Assembly (NCBI RefSeq): GCF_024385505.1
Contig: NZ_JANFLT010000006.1
Span: 434,001 to 498,000, forward strand
DNA: 64,000 nucleotides
Reading direction: 5' to 3'
From: Arthrobacter zhaoxinii
GTDB taxonomy: Bacteria; Actinomycetota; Actinomycetes; Actinomycetales; Micrococcaceae
In this document: positions 42,233-58,065 of the stretch, one piece after another
Layout of the letters: each line of letters begins with the position of its first letter
Numbering within the stretch: position 1 is the stretch's first letter
The notes under the pieces: generated by a model
Told to the model about the DNA's origin: nothing
Seen by the model: the letters and a program-made list of their open reading frames with translations, nothing else
Databases searched by the model: none
Position numbers and translations under genes: made by a program

Positions 42233-42358
42233 CGGTAGGGGACTAGGTACCGGCGGCACGGAATGGGGTAGTTTTCCAGCGTCGGGAATAGCGGGGAGCC
42301 ATTGTTTCGGTTCGGTTACCCGGCCTAAAATGTAACCAGCCTTCAGGGCTCCCAAAGC

Positions 42359-42421
42359 GGGGCCGACGTCGGGAGGCCTCCGAGACTGGGCCACCCCCAT
42401 CCCGGCGTCGGTCCCTTATTT
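42359..42421 (+). terminator. Rho-independent terminator of the rplY-pth transcript
   Basis: 16-bp stem with two G-T wobbles: 42359-42374 with 42400-42415. GGCC/GGCC pairs inside the loop, and TTATTT follows. Confidence 0.75.
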
Positions 42422-42442
42422 CCCAGCAGTACCGTCTACGGC

Positions 42443-42488
42443 CCGCCCGTCTGGTTGCAAATACATGTATTTGTATCTAGACGGGCGG
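42443..42488. promoter_or_regulatory. Concentric palindromes at the 5' side of the first regulator
   Basis: A perfect 16-base AT-rich palindrome (CAAATACA with TGTATTTG, 42458-42473) lies exactly at the centre of a 10-bp GC-rich inverted repeat (CCGCCCGTCT, 42443-42452, and AGACGGGCGG, 42479-42488). Both have their centre between 42465 and 42466. It could form one long hairpin or be an operator. Confidence 0.6.
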
Positions 42489-42586
42489 TCCTGTTGCACC
42501 GTATGCTCCAACCCACTGACCAGTTGCGAGCAGTGGTGTCCGGATCAGGACTCCATGCGGGCGTTGTGGGGGGCGTAGGCCGGCCG

Positions 42587-45202
42587 ATGGACAATGAGTC
42601 ACCTGTAGCCGAGCTGATCGGGCGTGCCGAGCTGCTCGACGACCTATGCGCTGCGCTGGCTGCCGGTGGTGCCGGAGCTGTCATCCTGGGCCGGCCAGGC
42701 GTCGGAAAGACCGCAGTGCTCCGTGCCGTAGCGGACCGGCTGCAGGCCGACTTCCACGTCATTCCGATCCGCGGCAGCGCCATCTCCGCCCGGACCCCGT
42801 ACGGGGCACTGGCCTTCCTGCTCAGCGGCCTGCCCGAAGGCGCGGAGCAGGATCCGCTGCAGCTGCTCCGGGAACTGAGCCGCAGCCTTACCGCCCGGGC
42901 CGGACAGGGCCGGATATTGGTCAGGGTGGACAATGCGGACCAGCTGGACCGGTTCTCCATCATGGTGCTGTCCCAGCTGCTGCGGCGGGGAACCATCGCC
43001 GTGCTGGCGGCCGCCTCGATCCAATGGGGAGCCAATCCTGAACTCGTAGGCCTGTGGAGCGAAGGACTCCTGGAACGAGTCGATCTCGAACTGCTGACCG
43101 AGCGGCAGACCCGCCAACTCATGCAGCAGATACTGGGCGGACCGGTGTCGTCCCTTGCCTCCGGAACCATGTGGCGGGAAACCGAGGGCAGTCCGCTGCT
43201 GGTCCGGCTCATGACCGCCGCACAGGTCCGCTGCGGAACCCTGGCACGCAGGGATGCCACCTGGGTCTGTACCGGCCCCTTCGTCCGCACCGGGGAAGTC
43301 AGCGAAGTGCTTAACAAGGTGCTGGACCGGCTGGGTGCAGCTGAACGGCGGCTGGTGGAAGTCCTGGCGCTGTGCCGAAGTCTTCCCTTGTCCACCGTCC
43401 TGGAAATGTTGCCGGCGCCGGGGGTTGATGCCCTTGAAGAACAGCAGATCATCTCCGTGGCAGGGACGCCGGCAGCAGTCCGGCCCGGAGCGTGGATTCC
43501 CGGAACGGTCATAGCGGAAAGCATGGCGCCCGGCCGGAGGCGGAAACTTTGGGAAGACATCTCGGCGCTGATTGCCTCCGAAGATTTGGACGGCGACGAA
43601 CTGACGGCATTCGCGGACTGGACACGGTCCTGCGGGGAAAATCTCCGTCCGGCGGACATCCTCCGTGCAGCGCGCACCGCGAACAGGCGCGCGGATCCCG
43701 CAGCGGCACTCAGGTTCGTCCGGACCGTGCCCGCGGCGGTGCGCAGCCAGGATCTGGTCCTGGAAGAGGTCCGCGCCCTGCACTTCATGGGGCATCTGCA
43801 GGAAGCCCTCCGCGTCTTCCGGGACGCGGAGCCCCGGCTGGTCCCGGAGGAACGTTTCAGTTATGTGCCGTTGCTGCTGCTTCACAGCCGGACGCAGGCA
43901 CGCCTGCCCGGGGCCGGAGACCCGCATGAGACGCTGGCCGCTGTCGAGGCATCATGCCCGGCGGAAGGGGAGCACCCTGAACTTGCTGCGGCGCTGGTCC
44001 TGGCGCAGGGCGCATTGGCTGCGGACGGGGGCCGCCTCGGGGAAGCACCGGAGGTTCCGGACCGCCTCGCGCGGCTCGCCGCGGACGGCTCGCTGACTCC
44101 TGCCACCCGGACGGAGGCGGCCGCGCTGTCCGCCCTTGTGCTCGCCCTGGCCGGACGGAACAGCGAGGCACTGCAGGCACTCAGGCAGCTGGGGCCGCCG
44201 GAGAACTATGCCGTCAGTCCCGCGAACGCGGGGGAGGTCTGCACCCGCATTTTCGATGCCTACGTTGTATCGGGTGAGTTGGAGCAAGCTGCTGATTTCG
44301 TTCGGTCCTTCAATGACAGCGGAGTCCGGCCCTCCTACCAGGGCAGCGGCGGGGAGCTGGCCGTGGCCGTACTCGCATCATGGCAGGGACAGGACGGTGC
44401 AGCGCGGCATGCGCTCTCCGGCGGTATCGGGCAGCTCCGTGTCCACGATCCGCAGGACATGCTGCCCCTGGCACAGACCCTGGCGGCTTACGTCCGCCGG
44501 GAGCAGCCCCCGGAAGGTCCCGGAATGCCGGGCAGGGAACAGGGCCCCAGCCAGCATCCCGGCTACGTTCGTGATTTCCTGAACCGCTATTTTTCTCTCC
44601 TGGCAGGTAATGCCGTAAACGACGAGGCCTGCGCCCGTCTGCGCGGCGAAGCGGCGTCTGCCCGGGCGAAAGGGTATGCGGCGCCGGCACTATTGTTTCT
44701 TTCAGCAGCAGTGCGGACGGGTGACAGGCAGGCAGCTGCCGAGATCCTCGCGACGGCACACGAGGTGAGCGGAAGGTTCAGTGAGCTGTTGGCGGATTTT
44801 GCTGCCGGGATCCTCCGCAATGACCCCGCCCTGCTGCTCAGCGCGGCTAAGGGGTTCAGCGACCGCGGGCAGTACCTGCTCTCCCGGGATGCGGCGCAGG
44901 CGGCGGAGGACAGGTTGGCTCACGCCCGCACCGCGGAGCGGAAAAAGCTGGCCAGAACGGCACGGACCCTGATTAACGCCAGCCTGAGGCGAATGCACCA
45001 AGTCGGGGGCCGCGCAGAAACTCTGGCGGAATTGAGCCAATTCGAGGCAGATCTTGCGCATCGTGCGGTTACGATAGCCACCACCACGCAGATCGCCGGA
45101 GAGCTGAACCTGTCTCCGCGAACTATCGAGTGGCACCTGGGAAAGATCTTCGCAAAGCTCCACGTCTCCGGCCGTTCCGAGTTGGCGGAGATTCTGGTCT
45201 AG
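42587..45202 (+). CDS. Large ATPase/LuxR-type regulator 1 (type A, divergent HTH)
   Basis: About 871 residues from ATG 42587. The P-loop NTPase domain comes first (GRPGVGKTAV at about 35-44, Walker B-like RILVRVDNADQLD) with the family-typical PYGALAFLLSGLP between them. The middle is a long all-helical, TPR-like region. The C-terminal HTH recognition part is LSPRTIEWHLGKIFAKLHVSGRSEL, but the usual LTxRExEV first helix is replaced by FEADLAHRAVTIATTTQIA. It belongs to the STAND/MalT-like LuxR group, which switches on effector or partner binding; the effector is unknown. The start is uncertain: no good Shine-Dalgarno, and the frame stays open to TTG 42455. First gene of a two-gene operon. Confidence 0.85.
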   Translation: MDNESPVAELIGRAELLDDLCAALAAGGAGAVILGRPGVGKTAVLRAVADRLQADFHVIPIRGSAISARTPYGALAFLLSGLPEGAEQDPLQLLRELSRSLTARAGQGRILVRVDNADQLDRFSIMVLSQLLRRGTIAVLAAASIQWGANPELVGLWSEGLLERVDLELLTERQTRQLMQQILGGPVSSLASGTMWRETEGSPLLVRLMTAAQVRCGTLARRDATWVCTGPFVRTGEVSEVLNKVLDRLGAAERRLVEVLALCRSLPLSTVLEMLPAPGVDALEEQQIISVAGTPAAVRPGAWIPGTVIAESMAPGRRRKLWEDISALIASEDLDGDELTAFADWTRSCGENLRPADILRAARTANRRADPAAALRFVRTVPAAVRSQDLVLEEVRALHFMGHLQEALRVFRDAEPRLVPEERFSYVPLLLLHSRTQARLPGAGDPHETLAAVEASCPAEGEHPELAAALVLAQGALAADGGRLGEAPEVPDRLARLAADGSLTPATRTEAAALSALVLALAGRNSEALQALRQLGPPENYAVSPANAGEVCTRIFDAYVVSGELEQAADFVRSFNDSGVRPSYQGSGGELAVAVLASWQGQDGAARHALSGGIGQLRVHDPQDMLPLAQTLAAYVRREQPPEGPGMPGREQGPSQHPGYVRDFLNRYFSLLAGNAVNDEACARLRGEAASARAKGYAAPALLFLSAAVRTGDRQAAAEILATAHEVSGRFSELLADFAAGILRNDPALLLSAAKGFSDRGQYLLSRDAAQAAEDRLAHARTAERKKLARTARTLINASLRRMHQVGGRAETLAELSQFEADLAHRAVTIATTTQIAGELNLSPRTIEWHLGKIFAKLHVSGRSELAEILV

Positions 45203-45221: not shown

Positions 45222-47921
45222 ATGCACGGGTTCAACCCGCGGCCGCTGATGGGCAGGGATGCCGTCCTTTCCTCCGTGCTCGAGAGTCTGCGCCGGCCCG
45301 TCGGACACGGCGCCGTCGTCGCCGGGGAAGCAGGTCTAGGGAAGACCGCCCTGGCGGCGGCTGCCGCACAGGAGCTGCAGGATTCGATGCCCGTCCACTG
45401 GGTCTATGCCAGCCCGGCCCTGAAGGCCGTGCCGTACGGGGCGCTGGCTGCCCTCCTGCCGGACCTCGCGCCGGGGCAGACCGGGTCACCGCTGGCGGTC
45501 ATGCGTGCCCTGATATCCCGGTTGTCGGACCCGGCGGGCGGTGGACTGCCCGCCGCACCGCAGCTCCCCGAACCCCTGGTCATCGTCGACGATGCACACG
45601 ACATCGACGGGCCGAGCCTCGACCTGCTCGCCCAGCTGCTGGACGCCGGACACATCCGGCTCCTTGTCCTGACCCGGTCCTTTCCGGATATATCCGGGGT
45701 TCTTCCGCATACATGGGACGGTCAGCTGACCCGCCACGGCCTGCTGCCGCTGGACGAGCGGGAAGTGCTGAAGCTGTGCCAGCAGGAGCTTCAGGGCCAA
45801 ATCAGCACGACCGCAGCCGTTGAGCTGGCCCGCCTTGCCGGCGGAAACCCGATGTACCTGCTGGCGCTGCTTGACGAAGCGGTGCGCCGCGGCTTCCTGG
45901 TCCAGCGGCATGGCATCTGGGTCGTGACCAACAGCGAGGTCCCGGTGGGCGGACGCGTGGGTGACCTCGTGAAGACACAGATACGCGGCCTGGACCTGCC
46001 GGACCGCACAGCTTTGGAAATGATCTGCCTTGCCGAACCGCTGCCGCTGCCGGCTGCCTTCCGGCTGGGGCTGCATGACTCGGTGGACCGCCTCACGAAT
46101 GCACTGCTGGTGAAGATCTCTGGCGATGTCCACCAGGTCCTGCGTCCGATGCACCCGATCTATGGAGAAGTCGTCCGCGGCATGGTTCCGGCGGCACGGA
46201 GCGCCCGTCTCCTTGATCAGCTGCGGCACGCCATGGAAGGGGTGGAGACGGAGGAGGAGGGACTGCTCCGCCGCATCTCGTGGGCGGTGGCCCTGGGGGC
46301 GGAGGTCCCGGAGCATGAGCTCCTATGTGCGGCGGAAACCGCGAACAACCGCTCCGATCCCCGGCTGGCCCTTCGCCTGGCAGCTGCCGTGGGAAACGGA
46401 GAACTGCGGATACCGGCACAAATCCAGGCGGCGCGCGCACTGCTGGTGCTCGGGGAACCCGGGCCGTCAGCCGCAGCGTTGGAAGGAACACTCGAGCAGG
46501 CACCCGATCTGCACGCCGTGAAGCAGGCGATGACGGTGCACGTCCAGCTCGCCCTGACGGCCGCTGAGGGAACCGGCTGGGAAGTTCCGCTGGCCCGCGA
46601 ATGGACCCGGGCAACGGACCGGCTGTCCGGCAGCGAACCTCCCCAGGCGGTGGAGCGGGCCCGCTGCGGCGCTCAGATGCTCGGCATCCTGCACCGGGTC
46701 AGGGAGGGCGACTATGTCTGGGCAGAACTGGAACTGGCTCAGGTGCTTCGTTCCGCAAGGGCGAGCATGGACCATGAGGCGGTCCTCTTTGCCGAGGCAC
46801 TGACGGCTGAGGTTCTGGTGGCAACGGGACGGGCGCAGACCGCACTCGAACACAGCACGGCTGCCATGAGGATGCTGCAGGAAGGCACCGGGGAATTGCA
46901 GCTTATGGGTTCGTTCGTCCTGCACCGGCACCTTGCCGTGCTGCTGTGGCTCGGCGAATGGGAACAGCTTAAGCGCTCCGTCGGTTCTGCGGATTCACTT
47001 GATCAACGGGCCCTCCTGCATTCCGGCGGCGTGGTCGACTTTGCCCTGGGTTTGAGCCGCCTGCGCTCCAGTGCCCTCGAAGACGCCCTCAAGGACTTTT
47101 CCGCTGCGGCGGAAGCTGCGGCGATCGCTGATCCCGAGGGAATCCTTCCCCTGTCGCTGGCTTTGGGTTCCTTTGCCGCCGGCAGTCTCGGCCAGCGGGA
47201 CCTCGCCGGGCGGCTGCTGGAGGAGGCAGGACGGGTATCCCCGCGGGGGCCGGAGCCTAGCCGGGTGCTGGCCGACGGGATCCTGGCGGGCGGGCGTTTT
47301 GCACGGGATTCCGACGACGCCTCTCTGCAGAAACTGCGGGATCTGGCTGCGCAGGCGCAGGAACGGTCCTTCACTTCGGTGGAATTCACCCTTCGGCACC
47401 TTTCCATGCGGCTGGGCTGCTTCGACGATGCCGGACGCCTGCTGAAGGTCACGGAAGGATTCGAAGGACCGCAGGCAGGTGTGCTCAACCGGGTGGCCCG
47501 CGCCGTGGTCGATCAGGACAGCGCGGCGCTTCTCGCCCTGGCTGCCGACCCCGATCCGGAACTGGACCTGCTCCTGGCCGGGCAGTGCCTGGCCGAGGCG
47601 CAGCGCGTGGCCCGCAGGAGTAACGACAAGGCCACACTGAACCGGATCCAGCGCCTGGCGGGCCGGCATGGAAGCCGCAGCCGAGGCTCGCTTCCCGGGT
47701 TGACCCGCCGGGAACTCGATGTTGCCGCACTGGTCGCGGCCGGACGTCGCAACGCCGACATCGCCGGCACACTGAACCTCTCCGTCCGCACCGTCGAAGG
47801 ACACATTTACCGGACGTACGAAAAACTCGGCATCAGCCGCAGGGAAGAACTCAAGGCAATGTTTCCTCTGCTGGACCAGCCATCCGGAGGAGCGCGGAAC
47901 CGGCCTATGGCCGCCGAGTAG
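45222..47921 (+). CDS. Large ATPase/LuxR-type regulator 2 (type B)
   Basis: 899 residues. N-terminus LMGRDAVLSSVL, Walker A GEAGLGKTAL (35-44), Walker B LVIVDDAHDID, a winged-helix-like LRPMHPIYGEVVRGMVPAARSA that it shares with regulator 5, then helical repeats and a canonical LuxR HTH: LTRRELDVAALVAAGRRNADIAG and LSVRTVEGHIYRTYEKLGISRR. ATG 45222 has GGAAGAGG upstream, only 19 bases after the stop of regulator 1, so the two are co-expressed and may work as a pair. After its stop comes the shared box that begins the next transcription unit. Confidence 0.9.
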   Translation: MHGFNPRPLMGRDAVLSSVLESLRRPVGHGAVVAGEAGLGKTALAAAAAQELQDSMPVHWVYASPALKAVPYGALAALLPDLAPGQTGSPLAVMRALISRLSDPAGGGLPAAPQLPEPLVIVDDAHDIDGPSLDLLAQLLDAGHIRLLVLTRSFPDISGVLPHTWDGQLTRHGLLPLDEREVLKLCQQELQGQISTTAAVELARLAGGNPMYLLALLDEAVRRGFLVQRHGIWVVTNSEVPVGGRVGDLVKTQIRGLDLPDRTALEMICLAEPLPLPAAFRLGLHDSVDRLTNALLVKISGDVHQVLRPMHPIYGEVVRGMVPAARSARLLDQLRHAMEGVETEEEGLLRRISWAVALGAEVPEHELLCAAETANNRSDPRLALRLAAAVGNGELRIPAQIQAARALLVLGEPGPSAAALEGTLEQAPDLHAVKQAMTVHVQLALTAAEGTGWEVPLAREWTRATDRLSGSEPPQAVERARCGAQMLGILHRVREGDYVWAELELAQVLRSARASMDHEAVLFAEALTAEVLVATGRAQTALEHSTAAMRMLQEGTGELQLMGSFVLHRHLAVLLWLGEWEQLKRSVGSADSLDQRALLHSGGVVDFALGLSRLRSSALEDALKDFSAAAEAAAIADPEGILPLSLALGSFAAGSLGQRDLAGRLLEEAGRVSPRGPEPSRVLADGILAGGRFARDSDDASLQKLRDLAAQAQERSFTSVEFTLRHLSMRLGCFDDAGRLLKVTEGFEGPQAGVLNRVARAVVDQDSAALLALAADPDPELDLLLAGQCLAEAQRVARRSNDKATLNRIQRLAGRHGSRSRGSLPGLTRRELDVAALVAAGRRNADIAGTLNLSVRTVEGHIYRTYEKLGISRREELKAMFPLLDQPSGGARNRPMAAE

Positions 47922-47936
47922 TTTTCGCTGGAAACA

Positions 47937-47981
47937 CCAGTAGGTTTTACTCGGGCGCCGCCATTGCGGGGTTCGTAGCGT
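47937..47981 (+). promoter_or_regulatory. Shared activator box and -10 of regulator 3
   Basis: Inverted repeat CCAGTA (47937-47942), 5 bases, TACTCG (47948-47953); -10 TAGCGT at 47976-47981. The T of TACTCG is 28 bases before the T of the -10, the same as at 50525 and 56276. Centred near -42 from the likely start, a position typical for LuxR-type activators next to the -35. Confidence 0.6.
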
Positions 47982-47997
47982 TGTAGCCGTTACCCAC

Positions 47998-48200
47998 GGT
48001 TCCGTGTGCGGTTGCGGCAGGGGGCTTAGCCCGCAGCCTGCGGCGCACGGGAACCTCGGGTCCCACATACGGAGCCGGCGGCGTCGATGCCCTCTGAGAC
48101 CGGGGCGTCCCCCCAGCCGCCGCCGGCTCCTTCCCGAACGCCTATCCGCCGACGCTGCGAATGCCGGCATCAACAGCACCGCGCAACCGGTGAAGGAGCC
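47998..48200 (+). promoter_or_regulatory. Candidate RNA switch in the leader of regulator 3
   Basis: The leader (about 218 bases) folds into hairpin 1 (47998-48009 with 48043-48055, one bulge and one wobble) and hairpin 2 with perfect 13-bp arms, 48071-48083 (GGAGCCGGCGGCG) and 48118-48130. The 3' arm continues into GGCTCCTT (48125-48132), which is the exact complement of AAGGAGCC (48193-48200), the Shine-Dalgarno of the gene. Hairpin 2 and Shine-Dalgarno pairing therefore exclude each other. No known riboswitch family is recognised. Confidence 0.45.
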
Positions 48201-48205
48201 GTTCG

Positions 48206-50404
48206 ATGGAAGCTGCCGGACGCCGCGAAAGCCTTGAAGGCAGCCAGCCGCTACCCCGTTCCGCATCGGTGCCGGCCCAGGTTCAAAATGCGGCGGCAGG
48301 AGCCCTCCAGGCGCTGTCCGAAGACAAAAGTGTTCTGGTCACGGGCGCCGCAGGGACAGGGAAGTCCACTGTCATGGCCAGTATCCTGGCGGGCCTCGGC
48401 AACGACTACTCGGTGCTGCAGCTGCGCGGGACTGCCTCATGGGCGGGAAAACCCTTCAACGGACTCTTGTGGCTCCTGAGCGAGCTGCCGCCGGAGTCCC
48501 TGTCCGATCCGGTGTATGTGCTCCAGTTCCTCCGAAAGGCTTTCCAGGAGAAGGCCGCCGGCCGCCGGCTGGTTCTCGCCGTCGAAAATCCGGCGGACCT
48601 GGACGCCGCCACGGCGGCCGTTCTCCTCCAGCTGTGCAGGGCCGGGTCGGCGCTCTTGCTGGCCACAGCCCGTGACCTGTCCGCCTGCAGCGGGGAGCTC
48701 GTCCGGTGGTGGGCCGAAGGCTCGGTCCATCGGGAGTCCCTGGAGCCGCTGCGTCCCGGCGCCACCCGGGTACTGCTGGAGGAACTGGCGGGCGGTCAGG
48801 TCTCTCACCGGCTTGTGGCCCAGGTGCAGAGAAGGAGCCGGGGAAATCCGCTGCTTTCGTCCATGTTTCTCCGGGAACAACTGAACGCCGGGACGGTGCT
48901 GAAGCGGCACGGAACCTTTGTGTGGACGGGGGCGGTGTCATATTCCGGAGCCCTGGCCGACCGGGTGGCAGCGGAAACCGTCGCCCTGTCCCCGGCGGAA
49001 CGCTATGCGGCGGATGTCCTGGCGGTCACCGGGGCCCTGCCCCCGCTCCTGCTCCTGCGGGTGGCCGATCCGGTCGCCGTGGAAAGGCTCGAGCAGGATC
49101 TGCTGATCGTCTCCGGTCCAGCCGGTACCGTCCAGCTCAAGGATCCGCTGCTCGAGGAGGCGGCGGCAGCACTGGTCCCGCCGGGCCGTGCCGCCGAAAT
49201 CCGGTCCCTGTTTGCCGGCGTCGTCAGCTGGGTCCCCGGTTCCGGCCCGCAGGCGCCGGAGGCGGCCCGCAGGAGGGCGGCTGCGGCCGCGGTTCGGGAG
49301 GCGGCGGATCTATCCCGCCGCGGCCGGTGGGAGGAAGCTGCCGCAGCCGCCCGGCGATGCCTGCAGGCAGCGGATGAACAGGGAGTCGAAGACAGCGGAG
49401 GGCCGGACCTGCTGTCGGACCTTTTCCACGTGTTCCTGCAGTGCGGTGACCTGCGCGAGGCTGAGGACCTCCTGTCGCGGTTGGATAAGGCAACCGAGGG
49501 TGCGGAGCTTCACGGAGGCAACGACCTATGCGCGGGTACCGTCCAGGTTCTCGGCGGGCGTGCCGACCGTGCCCTGGATTACCTGCGGCGGGCCATTGCA
49601 CAGTTCGAGGCAGACGGAACCGCGCAGCTGCTTCCCCTGGCGCATTCCGCCGCAGCCTATGCCTGCATCCTGCTTGATGACATTGACACCGCATACGGTT
49701 ACCTCGCTGCAGCGGTCGATCCCGGTCCGGCCGGAAAGGATCTTCCGGCGGCCTCTGATTCGGCGGAAACCGCCCAATGGGCCGCACTTACCCGACGCCT
49801 TACCGGGCTGTGCGCTGTCCGCGGAGTGACCGGCGGGCCGGGACCTGCCGCGGCCGGAGCGGATTTGGACCTGCCCGGAGCTCTGCTGGTGCTGGCCACC
49901 GCCGCCCTGCACGGCCACCCGGGAGCAGCCGAAGAGCTCGGTGAAACGGCAACCGGCTGCAGCGGGGACGCTGCGCAGTTGTACCTGGAGCTCGCTGAGG
50001 CGCTCACGGCGTCGGAGCCCGAAGGTCTCTGCCGGGCAGCAGAACGGGCCTATCAGCTGGGTCACTACCTGACGGCGTACGAGGCAGCCCGCAGTGCGGT
50101 CCGCCTGTCCCGGGCGCAGGCAGACCGCGCACGGCTGCGCGCTGCGACCCGAATCGAGAACGCCAGTTACCGGATGCTGCGGACAGCCAATTCGGTGTCG
50201 GACCGGCTGTCGGAACTGTCCGATTTCGAGCAGAGACTGGCACTGGGCGCAGCCGCCGGGTCCAGCAGTTCCCACCTGGCTGCGGCGCTGCATCTCTCAC
50301 CCAGGACGGTGGACTGGCATCTCGGCCGCATCTTCCAGACGCTACGTGTTTCCGGCCGCGCGGAACTGCGCGAGTGCCTCGAAACCGAACACCAGCACGA
50401 GTGA
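48206..50404 (+). CDS. Large ATPase/LuxR-type regulator 3 (type A, divergent HTH)
   Basis: 732 residues, the shortest of the five. Walker A GAAGTGKSTV (47-56). The Walker B position reads LVLAVENPADLD, with Glu-Asn where the others have Asp-Asn, so hydrolysis may differ. PFNGLLWLLSELP is the type A signature. The helical middle is shortened. The C-terminus LSDFEQRLALGAAAG, then LHLSPRTVDWHLGRIFQTLRVSGRAEL, resembles regulator 1 and likewise lacks the LTxRE helix. ATG 48206 has AAGGAG seven bases upstream. It is alone on its transcript; no type B partner follows. Confidence 0.88.
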   Translation: MEAAGRRESLEGSQPLPRSASVPAQVQNAAAGALQALSEDKSVLVTGAAGTGKSTVMASILAGLGNDYSVLQLRGTASWAGKPFNGLLWLLSELPPESLSDPVYVLQFLRKAFQEKAAGRRLVLAVENPADLDAATAAVLLQLCRAGSALLLATARDLSACSGELVRWWAEGSVHRESLEPLRPGATRVLLEELAGGQVSHRLVAQVQRRSRGNPLLSSMFLREQLNAGTVLKRHGTFVWTGAVSYSGALADRVAAETVALSPAERYAADVLAVTGALPPLLLLRVADPVAVERLEQDLLIVSGPAGTVQLKDPLLEEAAAALVPPGRAAEIRSLFAGVVSWVPGSGPQAPEAARRRAAAAAVREAADLSRRGRWEEAAAAARRCLQAADEQGVEDSGGPDLLSDLFHVFLQCGDLREAEDLLSRLDKATEGAELHGGNDLCAGTVQVLGGRADRALDYLRRAIAQFEADGTAQLLPLAHSAAAYACILLDDIDTAYGYLAAAVDPGPAGKDLPAASDSAETAQWAALTRRLTGLCAVRGVTGGPGPAAAGADLDLPGALLVLATAALHGHPGAAEELGETATGCSGDAAQLYLELAEALTASEPEGLCRAAERAYQLGHYLTAYEAARSAVRLSRAQADRARLRAATRIENASYRMLRTANSVSDRLSELSDFEQRLALGAAAGSSSSHLAAALHLSPRTVDWHLGRIFQTLRVSGRAELRECLETEHQHE

Positions 50405-50513
50405 GATCCGGTATTTCTTTCCACGGACACCCTGTTGCAGGTGGTTTAGGCCGGTAATTACGTAGCCCGGCACGGCCATCCACGGGTCATTTCCAAGTAA
50501 CCGCGTAGCGGAA

Positions 50514-50558
50514 CTAGGGTGCTCTACTCGTGTAACGCCGGGAAGGCGTTCCTACGCT
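50514..50558 (+). promoter_or_regulatory. Shared activator box and -10 of regulators 4-5
   Basis: TACTCG (50525-50530) with a degenerate left half CTAGGG (50514-50519) at the same 5-base spacing; -10 TACGCT at 50553-50558, again 28 bases from the T of TACTCG. Confidence 0.55.
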
Positions 50559-50577
50559 GGTGCACAGCAGGAGCGCC

Positions 50578-50763
50578 TTGACGGGCCGCCGGTGGGTGGA
50601 CATCCCCGGGGTGCAACCGAGTCCTGCTACTGAACCTGAACCTGAACCTGAACAAGAAGAACCTGAACCGACAGAAACCGGGTCTCCCAAGTGCAGCCAC
50701 ATGATGATCAGCAATCCCTGCTCCGCAGCTCCGGCAGTACCTCCGGCCTTCCGGCAGCGATGA
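50578..50763 (+). CDS. Candidate leader peptide, Pro-Glu repeat, coupled to regulator 4
   Basis: A 61-residue ORF not recognised as any family. TTG 50578 has CAGGAG five bases upstream. The product begins MTGRRWVDIPGVQ and then carries an acidic Pro-Glu repeat (EPEPEPEQEEPEPTE) encoded by a hexanucleotide repeat around 50626-50670. Its stop overlaps ATG 50760 of regulator 4 as ATGA, like other coupled pairs in the window. It begins about 13 bases after the predicted transcription start. It may be an artefact, in which case regulator 4 would start at GTG 50691. Confidence 0.4.
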   Translation: MTGRRWVDIPGVQPSPATEPEPEPEQEEPEPTETGSPKCSHMMISNPCSAAPAVPPAFRQR

Positions 50764-53438
50764 CTCCTGCCGGGGCGCCCGGCACGGCCGGCCAGGCGGC
50801 CCAGCCGGTCATGATCGGCAGGGCAGGAGTCGTTGAAGAGATTCTGCGGAACCTCGCCGGGGCAACACCGGGAACCGGCTGCCTGCTCGTGGGCGAACCC
50901 GGGATCGGCAAGACCGCAGTCATGCAGCACGTACTCCGGCACCTGCAGGAGGACACCTACATTGTGCAGGTGCGCGGCTCGGAATTCGCCGGCCGGACAC
51001 CGTTCGGCGCCCTGACGTTCCTGCTCTCCGACCTGGATCCCGAGCTTTCCGAGCACCCGGTGATGATCCTGCGCGGACTTACCCGGCTGGTGACGGAGCG
51101 CGCCGGCGGGCGTCCCGTCCTCCTGACCGTGGACAACGCTGAGGAACTGGATGAATTTTCCGCCATGGTGCTGACCCAGCTGGTGCTCAACCGCAGTGCA
51201 GGCATGCTCGTCGCCTTCCGCGACTTCAGCTCGGCTCCGGCGGAATTCGCCGGTCTGTGGCGCGACGGCGTCCTCGCGCGGGTGGACCTGGAACCGTTGA
51301 GCGTTCCGGAAGCCGGCGCCTACCTCGGCTCCCTGCTGGGCGGCACGGTCTCCCGTGCCGCCGCCGTTGCCATCAATGACTACGCCGGCGGCAACCCGCA
51401 TCTGCTGACGCTGGCACAAACGGACTTCCGGGATGCCGGGCGGCTCAGGCAGCACAACGGCAGGTGGATCCTGGCCCCCGGGGAGGACATCCGCGGCGGA
51501 CGGGTTGCCGGCGCGGTGATGGGTAACCTGGCGCACCTTTCACCCGCCCAGACCCGGCTGCTCCAGCTGCTGTCCATGGCGGAATCGCTGCCGCTGCCCC
51601 TGGTTCTCGCCTGGCTCGGCAACACGGACCTGGACGCACTCCAGGAACAGGGAATCGTCGCCCTGGATACGCGTCCGGTGCCGGATGTACTGATCTCCAA
51701 CCCCGTGGTGGCGCGGTCGGTCCGGGCAGGATTGACGTCGGCACAGCAGCGTCAGCTCTTTGAAGAGCTGGCCCCGTCGTTCAACACCGGACTGGTCCTC
51801 GATCCGCTTGTCCTGGCCCGCTGGCTCGACTGCATCGGTGAAGTTCCGGGCCGGGACCTGGCTGTGGGGGCTGCACGGCAAGCCACCGCACTGGGCCTGC
51901 CGGAAACAGCCGTCCGGCTGATTTCGGCAGCTTTCAGCGGGAATGAAAACGCCGGGGCGGTCATCGAGCTAGCCCGTGCACGGACGGCACAGGGCGAATA
52001 CGGTGCAGCACTCGGAGTACTCGCCCGCTTCCGGGGCAGCGATGCGGTCCCGTCTGCCGGGGACCGGATCCGCCTGACGCTCGCCGAATGCCGGGTCCTG
52101 TGCATTGAGGCAACCGGGCTGCGGGATCCGCGCTCAGCCGAAGCCGCAGCAGAGCCCACCCGGATGCGGCACACCGACCTCTTTGAACAGGTTGAACGGG
52201 AGATCGCCGAGCTGGACGGGGCGGCCGGGGCCGACAGTGCCAGGCGCGAACTGGCCCTCGCCCGTGCCGAATGCCACTCGGCCCACGGCCGGTTCCTGGT
52301 GAACGCCTCCTACCTGGCCGGCCTTGAGTTCCCGGATGCGGACTTCCGGATCCTGCGTGCGGCCTGGCTGAGCGAAGCCTGGAGCATGACCAACCGCCAG
52401 GACGACGCCGTCGAACTTGCGGGGACGGTGGAACGGATGCTTGAGGGAACGAGCGCCGATGTCCGCGCCGGCGTTGTCGGCAGGCTGCTGCACACCTATC
52501 TGATCACGGGGGCGCTTTCCGCCTGTGAACGGCTGCTGGCCGGAACCACCGGTATGGAGGGCACACACGCCGAGTTGGCCGAGGGATTGCTGCACGCCTT
52601 CGCCGGCAGGCCGGAACCGGCGCTCGCTGCACTGACCCCCGCGGTAAATCAGCTGATGGTCAGCGGGCCCGCTGCCTTCCTGCCCCTTGCGGCAGCGGCA
52701 GCAGCGTACTGCCACGCCGTGGAGGAGCGAAGCGAGGACGCCCGCCGGTACCTGCAGGTGCAGCGCTCAGCGGCCGACGGCGGACCCTGGGCGGTGCGCC
52801 GCGGCGCCCGGCACTTCGCCGCCCTGGCGGAGGCAACACTCGGCGGGGAGACCGGCAGCGCCCGCTTTGTTTCGCTCGCTGCGCAGGACCAGCGGCGCGG
52901 CGCCTACGCGTACGAGCTCCTTGCACGGTTGACGGCTATGCGGCTCGGTGATGCGGAAAGCCTGGACGATGTGCTTTCCGCTGCCGCAAACCAGCAGGGG
53001 GACTTCGCGGCGTTGTGTGAGCTCTATGCCAAGGGCCTGGGCAACGGCGACGCCCAGATGCTCCTGCGGGCATCGGAGCTGGCAGCCGGAGCCGGCCACG
53101 TCCTGCTGGCCCGCGAAATCTCGGAGCACGCCCTGGGCATCGCCTCCGGTGCCGGAGACCGGGCCACCGTCCGCTTCATCCACCGGAGCCGAAGAACCGC
53201 GGCGCCGGACGCGCCGGCAGAGGCCGCAGACGAGTTCCTCGGCGCCCTCACCGCCCGGGAACGCTCGATCGCCAGAAAAGCCGTGGCCGGCACCAGCAAT
53301 AAGAAGATCGCGGAGGAACTTGGGATTTCGGTTCGAACCGTTGAAGGACATCTATACCAGGTGTATTCGAAGCTCCACGTCGGCAGCCGGCGGGAGCTGG
53401 CACGCACCATCGCGGAGCAGGCAGGGGCAAAGAAATGA
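50760..53438 (+). CDS. Large ATPase/LuxR-type regulator 4 (type A)
   Basis: 892 residues from ATG 50760. Walker A GEPGIGKTAV (45-54), Walker B VLLTVDNAEELDE, type A signature PFGALTFLLSDL, and LVAFRDFSSAPAEFAGLWRDGVLARVDLEPL-like sensor region (only key parts read), then a long helical region. The C-terminal HTH is canonical: LTARERSIARKAVAGTSNKK, then ISVRTVEGHLYQVYSKLHVGS. Overall it is closest to regulator 1 within the array. GTG 50691 in the same frame is the alternative start, but ATG 50760 overlaps the stop of the small upstream ORF. The stop overlaps the ATG of regulator 5 (ATGA), so 4 and 5 are made together. Confidence 0.88.
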   Translation: MTPAGAPGTAGQAAQPVMIGRAGVVEEILRNLAGATPGTGCLLVGEPGIGKTAVMQHVLRHLQEDTYIVQVRGSEFAGRTPFGALTFLLSDLDPELSEHPVMILRGLTRLVTERAGGRPVLLTVDNAEELDEFSAMVLTQLVLNRSAGMLVAFRDFSSAPAEFAGLWRDGVLARVDLEPLSVPEAGAYLGSLLGGTVSRAAAVAINDYAGGNPHLLTLAQTDFRDAGRLRQHNGRWILAPGEDIRGGRVAGAVMGNLAHLSPAQTRLLQLLSMAESLPLPLVLAWLGNTDLDALQEQGIVALDTRPVPDVLISNPVVARSVRAGLTSAQQRQLFEELAPSFNTGLVLDPLVLARWLDCIGEVPGRDLAVGAARQATALGLPETAVRLISAAFSGNENAGAVIELARARTAQGEYGAALGVLARFRGSDAVPSAGDRIRLTLAECRVLCIEATGLRDPRSAEAAAEPTRMRHTDLFEQVEREIAELDGAAGADSARRELALARAECHSAHGRFLVNASYLAGLEFPDADFRILRAAWLSEAWSMTNRQDDAVELAGTVERMLEGTSADVRAGVVGRLLHTYLITGALSACERLLAGTTGMEGTHAELAEGLLHAFAGRPEPALAALTPAVNQLMVSGPAAFLPLAAAAAAYCHAVEERSEDARRYLQVQRSAADGGPWAVRRGARHFAALAEATLGGETGSARFVSLAAQDQRRGAYAYELLARLTAMRLGDAESLDDVLSAAANQQGDFAALCELYAKGLGNGDAQMLLRASELAAGAGHVLLAREISEHALGIASGAGDRATVRFIHRSRRTAAPDAPAEAADEFLGALTARERSIARKAVAGTSNKKIAEELGISVRTVEGHLYQVYSKLHVGSRRELARTIAEQAGAKK

Positions 53439-56173
53439 CGTACTGGGGGCAGGGCAGCCAACTCTTCGGACGGGACCGGGAACTCACCGAGGTGACCAGC
53501 CGGCTGCTGGACCCCGGGCTGCGGGGCGTCGTCCTGCTTGGAGCTGAGGGAATCGGCAAGTCCTACCTTGCTGCTCACGCCGCTGAGCACCTGAGTTCGA
53601 TGATGGCTCCGTACTATGTGAGCGGAAGCCCCGTGTTGTCCCGCATGCAGTACGGCATCCTCTCCACGTATCTGGGATCCACCACCGCCGCCGACATGGA
53701 ATCTCCACTGGCTGTCCTGCGGACGGTGCGGGCCCACTTCCAGCGGCTGACGGAAACCAGTGGCATGCAGACCCTTTTGGTAGTGGACAATGCCCAGCAC
53801 CTTGACGAAGCCAGTGCCCATCTGCTGACCCAGCTGGCCATGTCCGGGGAGCTTCGGCTCATGGTGATTTCCCGTGCGCGGGCACCCAGAATCCACGAAC
53901 TGCTCTCGCTGGCCCGGGACGGCCTGCTCGCCCGGGTGGATCTGGGGCCGTTGTCCGCGCAGGCTGTCCACGAGTTCTGCGTCAGCGCTCTCGGCGGGCC
54001 GGTGCTCCAGGCCTCCAGCACGGTGCTGCATCGGATGTCCCGCGGCAACCCCCTGTATGTGAAGGAACTGCTGACCGGGGCACGGCTGCAGCAGCGGTTG
54101 GTGGAAAGGAACGGTGCCTGGTTCCTCACAGGGGAATCGGACTCTGCGGACACGCCGCTGGCGGACCTGATCAAGACGATGCTCGCTTCCCGCAGTCCCG
54201 CGGAGCGCAGCGTGCTGGAGACGACGGCGCTCGCCGTGCGCCTGCCGCGGTCGGTGGTTTCGGCGGTTTCCGACGATGAAGCCGTGCGTTCGCTGGTGAT
54301 CGACGGTCTCCTGGAGGTCCTCCCGGACCGGGATGAATCAGCACATCTTGTGCAGCCGCTGCACGAGGAAATCATCCGGAGCCTGGTCCCGGCGGCCCGG
54401 AGCGCGGAGATCCGTGCAAAAGTCCTGAGCCGCTACGACCCGAAAACGCTGATCGATTCAAAGGAACCTTCCGGCCTCGACATCCTGCTCCGCCATGCCG
54501 AGTGGGCGCTGGACTGCGGGGAACAGCTCGGGCCCGAAGACCTGCTCGCGGCGGCGCGCGCGGCCAACGACATGGGGGACGCAGCACGCGGGATGCGGTT
54601 CGCAGCCGCGGTCCGCCCGCTGCCCTTCCGGCGGGAAGCGGACGTGGAACTTGCCGTCGCGTATGCCCGGCAGGGCAGCTACGGTCGGGCCCGCACCCAG
54701 TTGGACGCGCTGAAGAGCGGGACGGACGACGCCGGCGCCTGGACACAGCTCAGCATGCGGCGGGCGGTATTTACGGGCGCACTGATGCTCCGCCAGACCA
54801 ATGCTGAGGGCCGGACGTTGACTGCCCTGTCCGAGAGATGGGTTGAAGCGGCAACAGCGCTGGCAGTCCGGGCAGATGCTTCCGCAGGAACTCCGGCCGG
54901 AGTCCGTGCGGGGGCGGAATTGCTTGCTGCCGCTGCGCTTCTCCTGGACGGCAGCTACACCGAGGCCCGTAGCTGCCTGGCCGGGCTCGCTACGCAGGAA
55001 GCTCCGGACCCCGAACAGGCCCTTGTTTTCCACGGCCTCTATGCAGAAGTCCTCACGGCGTGCGGCGACGTGGAAGCAGCGCTGCAGCAGGCGCAGGACG
55101 CCGCAGACCTGCTCGACGCCAGCTCCGGACAGCTGTGGAGCTATTCCGGGTTTGTGTTCGTGCGCCATGCCTTCGCCCTGCTCCATGCCGGCCGGTTTAC
55201 CCAGTTGGAGCAGCTTGCCGCCCGGGTCCATTCCGGACCGCGGCACCTGTTGACCGCCATGGGCGGGACGCTGGGGGTTATCGAGGGCGCCCTTGAAATT
55301 CACCGGGGGAGGCTGCATGAAGGACTGAGGCGCCTGCGGCCTGCGGTGGAATCACTGCGGGACTGGGATCCCGAGCTGCTGCTTCCCTATGCGCTGGGGC
55401 TCGCAGGCTACGCATCGGCAGTGGTCGGCGACGGGACGCCTGCCGCCGGATCCGGCTCCCGGATGACGGCGCCGGGATACACCGGTCCCCGGCATTTGTG
55501 GCTTACCGCCCAGGCATACGCCGCTGCAGCCGAGGCATCGCAGTCCACCGAGGGTCCAACCCCCGACAGGCTTGCCGCGCTTGCCGCTGAAGCACGGGCC
55601 GCAGGACTGCTCAGCAGCGAAAAAGACATTCTCGAACTGTGCCTTGCCGTCGGGGACCTGGCCCAGGTGGGCCGCCTCGCCGAACTGACCGCGGACCTCG
55701 ACGGCGGGGAGGCCCGGGCGCTGCATACTTATGCCGCCGCCGTGGCTTCGGGTAACCCGGACCGGATGGTCGCGGCCGCCGAGGACGCCATCCGTGCGCA
55801 GAAGTACCTGGTAGCCGTGGAGAGCATCGGCCATGCCATCCGGTTCTACGGCAACCACGGAAACCTGCGCCGGCAGCGCGCGCTGATCCAGCAGCTGCGG
55901 CGCCGCCGGGAGGAACTGGCCGGTGTGACCGTCTCTTACCTCAGCCCGTCACTGCACCTGGTCCGCCTGACCCGGCGTGAACATGAAATTGTGGATCTGC
56001 TGCTCTCCGGCGCCACGACCAAGGACATTGCCGGGCATTTCACCCTCTCCCAGCGGACGGTGGAGGGGCACGTCTACCGGATCTACGTGAAGCTGGGAAT
56101 CAGCCGCAGGGCGGACCTCGACGCGGCCTACCGTGCCCTGGAACCGGGACCCCGGACGGCGTCCCTGCTCTAG
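53435..56173 (+). CDS. Large ATPase/LuxR-type regulator 5 (type B)
   Basis: 912 residues. N-terminus LFGRDRELTEV, Walker A GAEGIGKSYL (36-45), Walker B LLVVDNAQHLDE, then the type B motif LVQPLHEEIIRSLVPAARSA shared with regulator 2. Helical repeats fill about 340-830. Canonical LuxR HTH at the end: LTRREHEIVDLLLSGATTKDIAG and LSQRTVEGHVYRIYVKLGISRR. It overlaps regulator 4 by four bases. It is followed by a 20-base palindrome and then the promoter of the exopolysaccharide cluster. Confidence 0.9.
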   Translation: MTYWGQGSQLFGRDRELTEVTSRLLDPGLRGVVLLGAEGIGKSYLAAHAAEHLSSMMAPYYVSGSPVLSRMQYGILSTYLGSTTAADMESPLAVLRTVRAHFQRLTETSGMQTLLVVDNAQHLDEASAHLLTQLAMSGELRLMVISRARAPRIHELLSLARDGLLARVDLGPLSAQAVHEFCVSALGGPVLQASSTVLHRMSRGNPLYVKELLTGARLQQRLVERNGAWFLTGESDSADTPLADLIKTMLASRSPAERSVLETTALAVRLPRSVVSAVSDDEAVRSLVIDGLLEVLPDRDESAHLVQPLHEEIIRSLVPAARSAEIRAKVLSRYDPKTLIDSKEPSGLDILLRHAEWALDCGEQLGPEDLLAAARAANDMGDAARGMRFAAAVRPLPFRREADVELAVAYARQGSYGRARTQLDALKSGTDDAGAWTQLSMRRAVFTGALMLRQTNAEGRTLTALSERWVEAATALAVRADASAGTPAGVRAGAELLAAAALLLDGSYTEARSCLAGLATQEAPDPEQALVFHGLYAEVLTACGDVEAALQQAQDAADLLDASSGQLWSYSGFVFVRHAFALLHAGRFTQLEQLAARVHSGPRHLLTAMGGTLGVIEGALEIHRGRLHEGLRRLRPAVESLRDWDPELLLPYALGLAGYASAVVGDGTPAAGSGSRMTAPGYTGPRHLWLTAQAYAAAAEASQSTEGPTPDRLAALAAEARAAGLLSSEKDILELCLAVGDLAQVGRLAELTADLDGGEARALHTYAAAVASGNPDRMVAAAEDAIRAQKYLVAVESIGHAIRFYGNHGNLRRQRALIQQLRRRREELAGVTVSYLSPSLHLVRLTRREHEIVDLLLSGATTKDIAGHFTLSQRTVEGHVYRIYVKLGISRRADLDAAYRALEPGPRTASLL

Positions 56174-56186
56174 GCAATCCTGCACT

Positions 56187-56206
56187 GGCGGGAGTGCACT
56201 CCCGCC
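56187..56206. terminator. Perfect 20-bp palindrome after regulator 5
   Basis: GGCGGGAGTG followed directly by CACTCCCGCC. It can form a compact GC hairpin ending the regulator 4-5 transcript, though no T tract follows, so an operator role is also possible. Confidence 0.5.
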
Positions 56207-56264
56207 CCACGCGTAGCAATGCAGGTAGACGCCCTCCGGCGCAGAGCCCGTCCATCCCTCCAAC

Positions 56265-56309
56265 CGAGTACCCGGTACTCGTGCCCGCAGCAGACGGTCC
56301 TCCTAGATT
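56265..56309 (+). promoter_or_regulatory. Shared activator box and -10 of the exopolysaccharide operon
   Basis: Best copy of the box: perfect inverted repeat CGAGTA (56265-56270), 5 bases, TACTCG (56276-56281), extended to CGAGTACC/GGTACTCG around a single central C. -10 TAGATT at 56304-56309, 28 bases from the T of TACTCG. Confidence 0.65.
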
Positions 56310-56358
56310 GATGCCCGTTGGATAACTGTTGGTTTGGAAAAGGAATGACGGTCTCGTT

Positions 56359-58065
56359 ATGGGTGCTGATATACACCCCCGGCTTATGCCGGGTGCCCCG
56401 GCATTGGGAGCGTTGCCTCCGGCAGCCGGCACCGATGCTGCCGGTACGCAGCTGACCACTGATCCTCAGCCCGTGACGGCCGGACCGGCTGCCGGTCCGC
56501 TGCCGACCCGTTCCGCGGAGACTGGCGCGGTGACGGCCGATGTGCTCGCAGCGCCTCCGGCCGTGTTGCCGGGGGAATCGTTCGTCTTTCCCAGCTTCAC
56601 CGCCCGGCGGCCGTTCGGCAGGACCGGCCACCCCAGAAGTGCTGCCGTTGCGTGGAACCGCAAATACTCACGGATCATCACCGCTGCGGATGCAGTGGTG
56701 GTGTTCGCGGCGGCACTGGCCGGACACCTGGTGTGGTTCGGCCTGGCACCGGCACCGCTGAAGATCGGCTCGTTCACCACCACGTACCTTGTCGTCTCCG
56801 TGGTGGTCGGCTGTGCCTGGATGCTGGCCCTGCACGTCTACCGCAGCCGCGATCCCCGAATTACGGGCATCGGCACCGACGAATACAAGCGCGTCGTTAA
56901 CGCCAGCGTAGTCCTGCTGGGCGGCCTGGCCCTGGCCACGGTGGTCTTCCAATTCGATGTGTCCAGAGGGTACTTCGGACTGGTTTTCCCTGCCGGGGTT
57001 GGCGGCTTGATCTGCTCCCGGTGGCTTCTGCGCCAGTGGCTGCAGGCCCAGCGGCAACGTGGGCGGTACCTCTCCAAAGTCGTGGTGCTGGGGCGCCCCC
57101 GGGACGTGCGGTACGTCGTCCACCAGATCAACGCCAAATCCCGTGCCGCCTACCAGGTGGTGGGTGTGGTTTTGACGGGCAGGCAACGGGCGTGGCTCGA
57201 CGTGGACGGGACGCGTCTGCCGGTGGTCTCCGACGAACATAAAGTGGTTGACGCCGTGGCCCGGCTCCGGGCCGATGCCGTGATTGTTGCCGGTCAGACC
57301 AAGGGTGGAAGCCGTTACGTCCAGGAACTCGGCTGGGAGTTGGAGGAATCGTCGACCCAGCTGATCCTGACCACCGGGCTGACGAACGTAGCCGGCCCGC
57401 GGATCCATTCCCGTCCGGTGGAGGGCCTGCCCCTGATGCATGTGGAGCTGCCCCAGTACACGGGGGGCAAGCATGTCCTGAAGCGGGGACTGGACATTGT
57501 CCTCTCCGGGGCAGCCCTGCTGGGCCTGGTTCCCGTCTTTCTTCTCCTGGCCGTCCTGGTCCGCCGGGACAGCCCGGGACCGGCGCTCTTCCGGCAGGAA
57601 CGGGTGGGCCGTGGCGGAGAAGTCTTCGAGATGCTCAAGTTCCGGTCCATGGTGCAGACCGCCGAGGATGACCTGGCCGGCCTGCTGGACCGAAACGAGG
57701 GCTCGGGGGTGCTGTTCAAAATGCAGCAGGATCCCCGTGTCACCCGCGTGGGCCGCTGGATGCGGAAGTACTCCCTCGATGAACTGCCGCAGCTGTGGAA
57801 CGTTTTCCTGGGCCATATGTCCCTGGTCGGCCCCCGCCCCCCGCTGCCCCGCGAAGTGGCCCAGTACGGCAACCGGGTGCACCGCCGCCTGTACATCAAG
57901 CCAGGACTCACCGGCATGTGGCAAATCAACGGCCGGTCGGAACTCAACTGGAAAGACGGTGTCCGGCTGGATCTGTACTACGTCGAAAACTGGTCGCTTG
58001 CCGGCGACCTCATCATTCTCTGGCGCACGGTGCAGATGCTCCGCCGGCCAGTGGGCGCGTACTAG
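56359..58065 (+). CDS. Polyprenyl-phosphate sugar-1-phosphate transferase (WcaJ/exopolysaccharide type)
   Basis: Membrane enzyme that loads the first sugar phosphate onto the lipid carrier to start a repeat unit. About 568 residues: a disordered N-terminus of about 100 residues, four membrane helices (near 115-210), a CoA-binding-like Rossmann region (KVVVLGRPRDVRYV), a fifth helix (IVLSGAALLGLVPVFLLLAVL) and the catalytic bacterial-transferase domain with FRQERVGRGGEVF, KFRSM, YSLDELPQLWNV, LVGPRPPLP and KPGLTGMWQINGRS. ATG 56359 lacks a good Shine-Dalgarno; TTG 56329 in frame is an alternative. First gene of the cluster, directly under the shared box. Confidence 0.9.
   Translation: MGADIHPRLMPGAPALGALPPAAGTDAAGTQLTTDPQPVTAGPAAGPLPTRSAETGAVTADVLAAPPAVLPGESFVFPSFTARRPFGRTGHPRSAAVAWNRKYSRIITAADAVVVFAAALAGHLVWFGLAPAPLKIGSFTTTYLVVSVVVGCAWMLALHVYRSRDPRITGIGTDEYKRVVNASVVLLGGLALATVVFQFDVSRGYFGLVFPAGVGGLICSRWLLRQWLQAQRQRGRYLSKVVVLGRPRDVRYVVHQINAKSRAAYQVVGVVLTGRQRAWLDVDGTRLPVVSDEHKVVDAVARLRADAVIVAGQTKGGSRYVQELGWELEESSTQLILTTGLTNVAGPRIHSRPVEGLPLMHVELPQYTGGKHVLKRGLDIVLSGAALLGLVPVFLLLAVLVRRDSPGPALFRQERVGRGGEVFEMLKFRSMVQTAEDDLAGLLDRNEGSGVLFKMQQDPRVTRVGRWMRKYSLDELPQLWNVFLGHMSLVGPRPPLPREVAQYGNRVHRRLYIKPGLTGMWQINGRSELNWKDGVRLDLYYVENWSLAGDLIILWRTVQMLRRPVGAY

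Follow-up and report, generated by a model that had tools for sequence, protein, structure and literature searches.

We describe here a promoter design shared by an array of regulator genes and the exopolysaccharide genes next to it in Arthrobacter zhaoxinii. The stretch of DNA analyzed, which we call the window, is 64,000 nt long (G000:C6:434001-498000, from a genome of 3.5 Mb). It contains five LuxR-type regulators in tandem, REG1 to REG5, followed by an exopolysaccharide cluster. It is well supported that REG3, the REG4-REG5 pair and the exopolysaccharide operon have a common type of promoter; we refer to the three promoters as P3, P4 and PE, respectively. The promoter finding is real and conserved, and an activator can be proposed at candidate level. 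Our preferred reading, to which we give a probability of roughly 0.72, is that P3, P4 and PE form one small regulon that is bound by a MalT-like oligomeric activator encoded in the array, most likely REG4/REG5. Such a regulon would be self-reinforcing and would have an additional RNA layer.

All features are on the plus strand unless stated otherwise. At P3, upstream of REG3, the dyad box CCAGTA-N5-TACTCG (CCAGTAGGTTTTACTCG) occupies 47937..47953, and a -10-like hexamer, TAGCGT, follows 22 bp after it (47976..47981). P4, upstream of REG4-REG5, has the box CTAGGG-N5-TACTCG (CTAGGGTGCTCTACTCG) at 50514..50530 and the -10-like hexamer TACGCT at 50553..50558. Upstream of the exopolysaccharide operon, PE has CGAGTA-N5-TACTCG (CGAGTACCCGGTACTCG) at 56265..56281, whose arms are exact inverted repeats in the window, and TAGATT as the -10-like hexamer (56304..56309). 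The original prediction, made from the letters of the window, had located these three boxes with the T of TACTCG 28 bases 5' of a TANNNT each time, and had pointed to a common GG and TC(G/C)TA around the -10. Both observations were borne out in all three promoters. The dyad is centred at about -42, and by eye no recognisable -35 element at 17 bp spacing is present in the window promoters. With up to three mismatches allowed, the full pattern has four matches in the window (0.55 expected; the largest number in 100 shuffles was three), one of them being the palindrome at 56265 read on its reverse strand.

In the whole genome, the full pattern with at most one mismatch occurs three times, each time exactly: at window positions 47937 and 56265 and at C6:513754. 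The same pattern written backwards, our control, has no match. This search misses P4 because P4 has two mismatches; the pattern CTACTCG-N22-TANNNT gave nothing new beyond the known P4. The exact dyad CNAGTA-N5-TACTNG is found in the genome only at the same three places. When one mismatch is allowed, the dyad occurs at 27 places compared to 117 for its backwards control, and therefore the loose dyad alone is not enriched genome-wide. We also built a sequence-only promoter profile from 22 promoters, the three window sites included. It gave four sites in this genome at 30.0-32.5 bits, and the next match, among the 150 of 1326 first-look candidates that were scored, was at 12.6 bits; P4, on which the profile was partly built, scored 30.3 bits. 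The strong sites are nearly unique to the locus. They are P3, P4, PE and one at a decayed duplicate, all within about 32 kb. The fourth site (C6:513754) is outside the window, 23.5 kb beyond PE. It stands behind a remnant of the REG5 C-terminus and before a truncated glycosyltransferase (the duplicate is L005:1432-2272, equal to G000:C6:513432-514272), and its box and -10 are intact. A large scattered regulon in this genome is rejected, as there are only four strong sites. Chance occurrence is rejected by the mismatch shuffles, the backwards control and the gap in profile score between 30.0 and 12.6 bits. It had been proposed, together with the original prediction, to ask whether the pattern occurs at chance frequency across the genome. 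It does not: beyond this locus and its decayed duplicate the genome has no strong site, and most genomes of the genus have such sites at the same three positions.

For the genus, intergenic stretches of 29 genomes were scored with a two-block weight matrix. Scores above 18.5 bits were obtained for P3 in 26 genomes, for P4 in all 29 and for PE in 24 (79 of 87 stretches), and the maximum among 1109 control stretches from the same loci was 10.2 bits; these conservation scores are optimistic, because the matrix was refined on the promoters that it scored. The two blocks and the spacing of 22-23 bp between box and -10 stay, and the spacer sequences have diverged. TACTCG, the right arm, is the most constant part. 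The left arm is promoter-specific: CCAGTA in P3, CTRGKG in P4 and CGAGTA in PE. According to the original prediction, the left half of the second box is degenerate. We find instead a conserved variant, CTAGGG or CTGGTG in 28 of the 29 genomes (TTGGTA in one). Decay of the P4 left arm is rejected for this reason. The profile has a match at E 0.01 or better in 26 of the 29 genomes, and 59 of the 62 matches are at the locus (one of these is the decayed duplicate). In a sample of the family, where an E-value of 0.001 and stricter filters were used, matches are present in 40 of 295 genomes, which represent 9 of 32 genera.

A few peculiarities of individual genomes can be mentioned here. In G014 (L061), all three promoters apparently have a spacing of 23 instead of 22 bp, as if shifted together (the third was judged by eye, with N4 in the dyad). 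In four genomes, G001, G004, G012 and G015 (L069-L076), about 18-27 kb of other DNA lies between REG2 and REG3; there is a box-like site on both sides of this DNA, that on the REG3 side scoring 13.8-20.8 bits. Three genomes of clade B (our clades A, B and C are a grouping by identity, not a tree) have weak profile matches of 18-21 bits off the array, at G003:C1:3422950, G008:C1:3576415 and G023:C1:232439, which might be further regulon members.

Each window promoter has an additional half-site upstream, in direct orientation. It is CGAGTA at 47915..47920 for P3 (at -22 from the box and overlapping the REG2 stop), CAAGTA at 50494..50499 for P4 (-20) and CAGGTA at 56222..56227 for PE (-43). Such half-sites lay outside both the scoring matrix and the profile. 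The 62 bp upstream of 83 genus promoters (9 of 92 regions, with scores of 18 or less, were dropped) contain 76 direct half-sites as compared to 4.2 in base shuffles, with a maximum of 14 in 1000 shuffles. Reverse half-sites number two, and a downstream control has two forward and three reverse. For other genera we used 17 promoters; of one set of 12 matches, 4 that were weak and partial (three L165, one L150) had been dropped, and all 9 from a further set kept. These have 17 direct and 4 reverse half-sites, the shuffles giving a mean of 1.06 and a maximum of 7. At least one direct upstream half-site is present in 61 of the 83 own-genus promoters and in 12 of the 17 others, with the ordered spacing of MalT-like multi-box promoters. 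Most of those in the genus itself lie near -20 to -22, -41 to -43 and -51 to -54. Clustering at a period of 10.5 bp has a permutation p of 0.00015 in the other genera and of 0.007 in the genus itself, where 19 offsets were grouped by hand with near-identical ones merged; in these statistics 10.5 bp was the author's choice of period and relatedness was ignored, and the fit is best at a period closer to 11-11.5 bp. The direct orientation and the roughly helical spacing would be expected for a MalT-like oligomeric activator.

Which protein might bind these boxes? All five array proteins match GerE helix-turn-helix (HTH) and ATPase models. REG1 (42587..45202; the open reading frame opens at 42455 and the ATG at 42587 is the likelier start), REG2 (45222..47921), REG4 (50691..53438) and REG5 (53435..56173, overlapping REG4 by 4 bases) have both AAA_16 and GerE above cut-off and belong to the STAND/LAL LuxR regulators. 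REG3 (48206..50404), a LAL-type LuxR regulator, has GerE above cut-off and ATPase matches below it. There are two HTH types in the array, WHL (REG1 and REG3) and GHxY (REG2, REG4 and REG5). HTH conservation is highest in REG4 and REG5, as judged from the best match within the loci of each genome, whether or not this is the syntenic gene. In most loci of other genera, the types that match best immediately upstream of the module are relatives of REG4, REG5 or REG2. These are suggestive observations, and they would make REG4/REG5 the likeliest box binders. A relative of REG5 at E 1e-60 or better is found in all 29 genus genomes. The best named match to REG5, in a search that may exclude records of the window itself, is in Arthrobacter yangruifuii, with 83% identity. 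The first gene of the exopolysaccharide cluster, a polyprenyl glycosylphosphotransferase (56359..58065), scores 413 bits with NCBIfam TIGR03025, the cut-off being 295.6.

The regulon could work in the following way. An ATP-dependent LuxR-family oligomer from the array, likeliest the overlapping pair REG4/REG5, would bind the three promoters. The dyad at about -42 would stand in for a -35 element, as in class II activation, and the extra upstream half-sites, which are direct and on roughly the same face of the helix, would allow cooperative binding. The targets of the oligomer would be the exopolysaccharide operon and, within the array, REG3 and REG4-REG5. Since the array is within its own regulon, activation would be self-reinforcing. 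As a second layer, a hairpin RNA would be made from some of these promoters and from its own probable gene beside REG1. Its loop, GAGACC, might pair with the GGTCTC at the REG4 start codon and, where a genome has this element there, with that at the start codon of the glycosyltransferase or of a small leader open reading frame. The original prediction had gone from the boxes to one array activator that drives both the regulators and the exopolysaccharide operon. The shared promoter type and the regulon stand. From sequence we infer the remainder: that there is a single activator, which one it is and that it belongs to the array, that it forms oligomers and activates rather than represses, and where transcription starts.

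Several other explanations should be weighed against this one. The two arms of the box might be contacted by two different members of the array, or by a heterodimer of REG4 and REG5, in which case the left arms may set which regulators act where. This is a serious contender, somewhat on the doubtful side. It would account for a constant right arm combined with left arms that are conserved differently at each promoter, and both the 4-base overlap of REG4 and REG5 and the two HTH types of the array suit it; the exact inverted repeats of the PE arms in the window suit a homodimeric contact better. Alternatively, a regulator from outside the array, for example another LuxR-type response regulator, may bind the boxes, with the array being a passive part of that protein's regulon. 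Many LuxR-type HTHs prefer related half-sites, the links between the box and REG4/REG5 are indirect, and five box loci of other genera (L170, L171, L174, L175 and L176) match none of the window proteins tried within the stretch that was fetched. We nevertheless consider an outside regulator unlikely, as the four strong sites of the genome are all within about 32 kb, in or beside the locus, as LAL genes are near the module in 17 of 20 RNA loci from other genera, and as multiple direct half-sites fit an oligomer. It is still less probable that the box is a repressor operator that overlaps the promoter. Binding at about -42 would also block RNA polymerase, and sequence cannot tell the two modes apart; however, a -35 at 17 bp spacing is not recognisable by eye, and phased upstream half-sites are typical of activators.

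The most novel element of the locus is the hairpin RNA. Copy 1 (42357..42418) is between pth and REG1, and copy 2 (48069..48133) is in the leader between P3 and REG3, with the loop TGAGACC. Copy 1 is probably a small RNA gene of its own: in the relatives viewed, it is preceded by a recurring promoter-like sequence, TTGTTT and then CCTAAAAT or similar, and by a small 5' hairpin. A scan of copy 1 with sigma-70 and terminator consensus sequences found none, although the promoter-like sequence recurs by eye. Two models of the hairpin were used, one from seven copies and the other from 27 copies of both kinds. With the seven-copy model, each of the 29 genus genomes has two copies at the locus. A third strong copy is present in G004, and weaker extras (28-39 bits) occur elsewhere in G003, G009, G021, G023 and G026. 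Copy 1 is positioned upstream of REG1. In clade A (12 genomes) copy 2 is in the REG3 leader. The remaining 17 genomes have it behind REG5, and in 14 of these it lies downstream of the best PE box. With the 27-copy model at E 1e-4, the hairpin is present in 155 of 295 sampled genomes of the family (19 of 32 genera). In an order-wide sample it is present at E 1e-5 in 15 of 297 genomes, each of which is in the same family.

The structure of the hairpin is supported by covariation, with two-sided changes beyond those in shuffles. For 19 copies from other genera, the structure model was used in finding them but not in realigning them; 99.2% of their cells are paired and nine pairs have two-sided changes, a number that none of 500 shuffles reached; slid controls of this alignment are 22-60% paired. 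In the mixed set from the genus itself 94.2% of cells are paired, and three inner-helix pairs fail in eight distinct copy-1 rows. G-U pairs outnumber C-A pairs by 27 to 1 in other genera and by 49 to 16 in the genus, and therefore the plus strand is the likely RNA. The sequences of the loop and the internal loop are conserved across genera. Rfam gave no match at gathering score in the stretches scanned and none at E up to 1 over 8 loci; elsewhere there were weak matches, far below threshold, to snoRNA, microRNA and isrG models. That the hairpin is a known Rfam family is accordingly rejected for the stretches scanned.

The RNA is linked to the promoters in other genera as well. Of 17 promoters there, 12 are followed by the RNA at no more than 300 nt from the box; the copy in L170 is a weak one (33.9 bits). 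By eye, the likely start region in L167 and L177 leads directly into the RNA, and in L167 a terminator-like hairpin and a T-run come after the RNA. Among 20 RNA loci (19 fetched for the RNA, L167 for both RNA and box), 17 have LAL genes and 14 a similar glycosyltransferase; a further ten loci (nine fetched for the box, one for the RNA) have LAL matches in five. These figures show linkage and not frequency, because the loci were chosen for holding the RNA or the box.

A potential target of the RNA is suggested by its loop, since the reverse complement of the conserved GAGACC is GGTCTC. At REG4 this element is at 50681-50686 (GGGTCTC and GTG together span 50680..50693), with an in-frame GTG at 50691; at the glycosyltransferase it is at 56350-56355 (span to 56361), before the probable ATG start at 56359. 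In all 29 genomes GGTCTC is followed after 1-4 nt by a GTG in the REG4 frame, with no intervening stop, at a distance from the -10 that varies from 33 to 132 nt. After PE, in five clade C genomes, the element precedes a short leader open reading frame of 58-76 codons. When hexamers standing 2-6 nt before RTG were ranked in the 300 nt that follow each of 104 box promoters, GGTCTC came first. It is found in 49 promoters (the next hexamer in 26) and in 12 of 26 groups (the next in 10); promoters scoring 12 or less, 5 of 92, had been dropped from the ranking. It is possible that the GAGACC loop pairs with GGTCTC at start codons and affects translation. Here again we infer from the letters that the RNA is transcribed, that it pairs in cells and that pairing has an effect.

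Would a simpler explanation of the hairpin suffice? It could be a mere terminator or a repeated palindrome with no link to GGTCTC. Stable GC-rich hairpins can be terminators, T-rich sequence follows copy 1 in several genomes (by eye), the complementarity amounts to only 6-7 bases and many hairpin leaders lack GGTCTC. On the other hand, the conserved loop and internal-loop sequences are unlike those of simple terminators, two copies are present at the locus in every one of the 29 genomes, and GGTCTC stands before the REG4 GTG in all of them and ranks first among hexamers before start codons. We regard this simpler explanation as plausible, if the weaker of the two.

Certain observations weigh against the regulon and RNA layer that we prefer, and we gather them here. 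The weight matrix was refined on the same promoters that it evaluates, and the three window sites are part of the profile. Three of 29 genomes (G005, G013, G014) have a weak or altered P3, and five of 29 (G001, G005, G012, G013, G017) a weak or altered PE; in G017 there is no glycosyltransferase match after the PE position. The P4 left arm differs, and therefore more than one binder is possible. Direct upstream half-sites are missing from 5 of the 17 other-genus promoters. Three of the 62 genus profile matches (in G003, G008 and G023) are away from the locus. The HTHs point weakly to REG4/REG5, because the whole sequences of these two proteins are also the most conserved. As for the RNA, its pair-type covariation is within the range of shuffles (137 of 500 as high in the genus, 474 of 500 in other genera), and copy 2 is upstream of the best PE box in three genomes (G006, G011, G015). 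Only 8 of 28 PE leaders have GGTCTC before an ATG that shares the frame of the glycosyltransferase. The element is absent from the first 450 nt after PE in all eight clade B genomes and from the first 450 nt after P3 in all 12 clade A genomes, and 11 of the 17 other-genus promoters lack it over their first 300 nt.

Two neighbouring features can be added. A long, near-perfect inverted repeat at 42440-42490, just 5' of REG1, is also present in the same-species genome L044 and was seen in none of the other relatives viewed. Within the exopolysaccharide cluster, on the minus strand, there is a GDSL-type lipase-like gene (60300-61067), which scores 167.6 bits with NF045548, below the cut-off of 300.

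We know other systems with which this one can be compared. Regulators of the Streptomyces LAL type, such as AbsR2, are usually linked to antibiotic clusters. The NCBIfam model TransRegAbsR2 (NF050132) was scanned against REG3, REG4 and REG5 and matched them at 52, 90 and 88 bits, far below its cut-off of 850; these three proteins do not belong to that equivalog. The class II lux box of LuxR is alike in having a dyad near -42 and no visible -35. It differs in sequence, in the length of 17 bp and in the extra upstream half-sites, and STAND regulators are not acyl-homoserine-lactone receptors. 6C RNA has GC-rich stem-loops with runs of C in the loops, and in these features it and other C-rich-loop small RNAs of Actinobacteria resemble the hairpin; in contrast, Rfam gave no 6C match in the stretches scanned, and the hairpin is linked to a LAL regulon and confined to its own family in the order-wide sample of 297 genomes.

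The MalT regulon of Escherichia coli has in common with the present system a large ATPase with a LuxR-type HTH and several sites per promoter. MalT reportedly multimerises with inducer and ATP and binds cooperatively to several boxes (PMC4381067, PMC10427625). Our box sequence (CGAGTA/TACTCG) differs from that of MalT, a dyad at -42 is combined with phased direct half-sites, and the regulon consists of a regulator array and an exopolysaccharide operon, not of maltose genes. With the MalT equivalog model NF003420, REG4 scores 24.5 and REG5 26.2 bits as compared to a cut-off of 537, and in the HTH region only; a search of solved structures with REG5 likewise matched HTH regions only. On sequence grounds the array system appears MalT-like but not a MalT equivalog. 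Literature searches found nothing relevant on LAL arrays with exopolysaccharide in Arthrobacter or on such an RNA. A 2012 census of actinobacterial LuxR proteins gives counts for Arthrobacter, and no mention of exopolysaccharide, tandem or binding site was found in its main text (PMC3466318).

If the preferred reading is correct, what would it mean? The promoter design and the RNA travel together in Arthrobacter and its relatives, which suggests a two-layer switch for slime production. A broader version can be formulated, in which multi-box promoters of STAND LuxR regulators and a new class of hairpin RNA pairing with GGTCTC couple self-activation to RNA control of exopolysaccharide across much of the family. 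We hold it tentatively, at a little under even odds. To our knowledge, a binding site or regulon has been defined for few STAND transcription regulators. In this case the sequences of dozens of genomes reveal the site, its multi-box grammar and a regulon of four sites, which offers a route to finding the targets of orphan sensors. The hypothesis that follows is that a STAND activator, together with a structured RNA that acts at start codons, may determine exopolysaccharide production in a large bacterial group.

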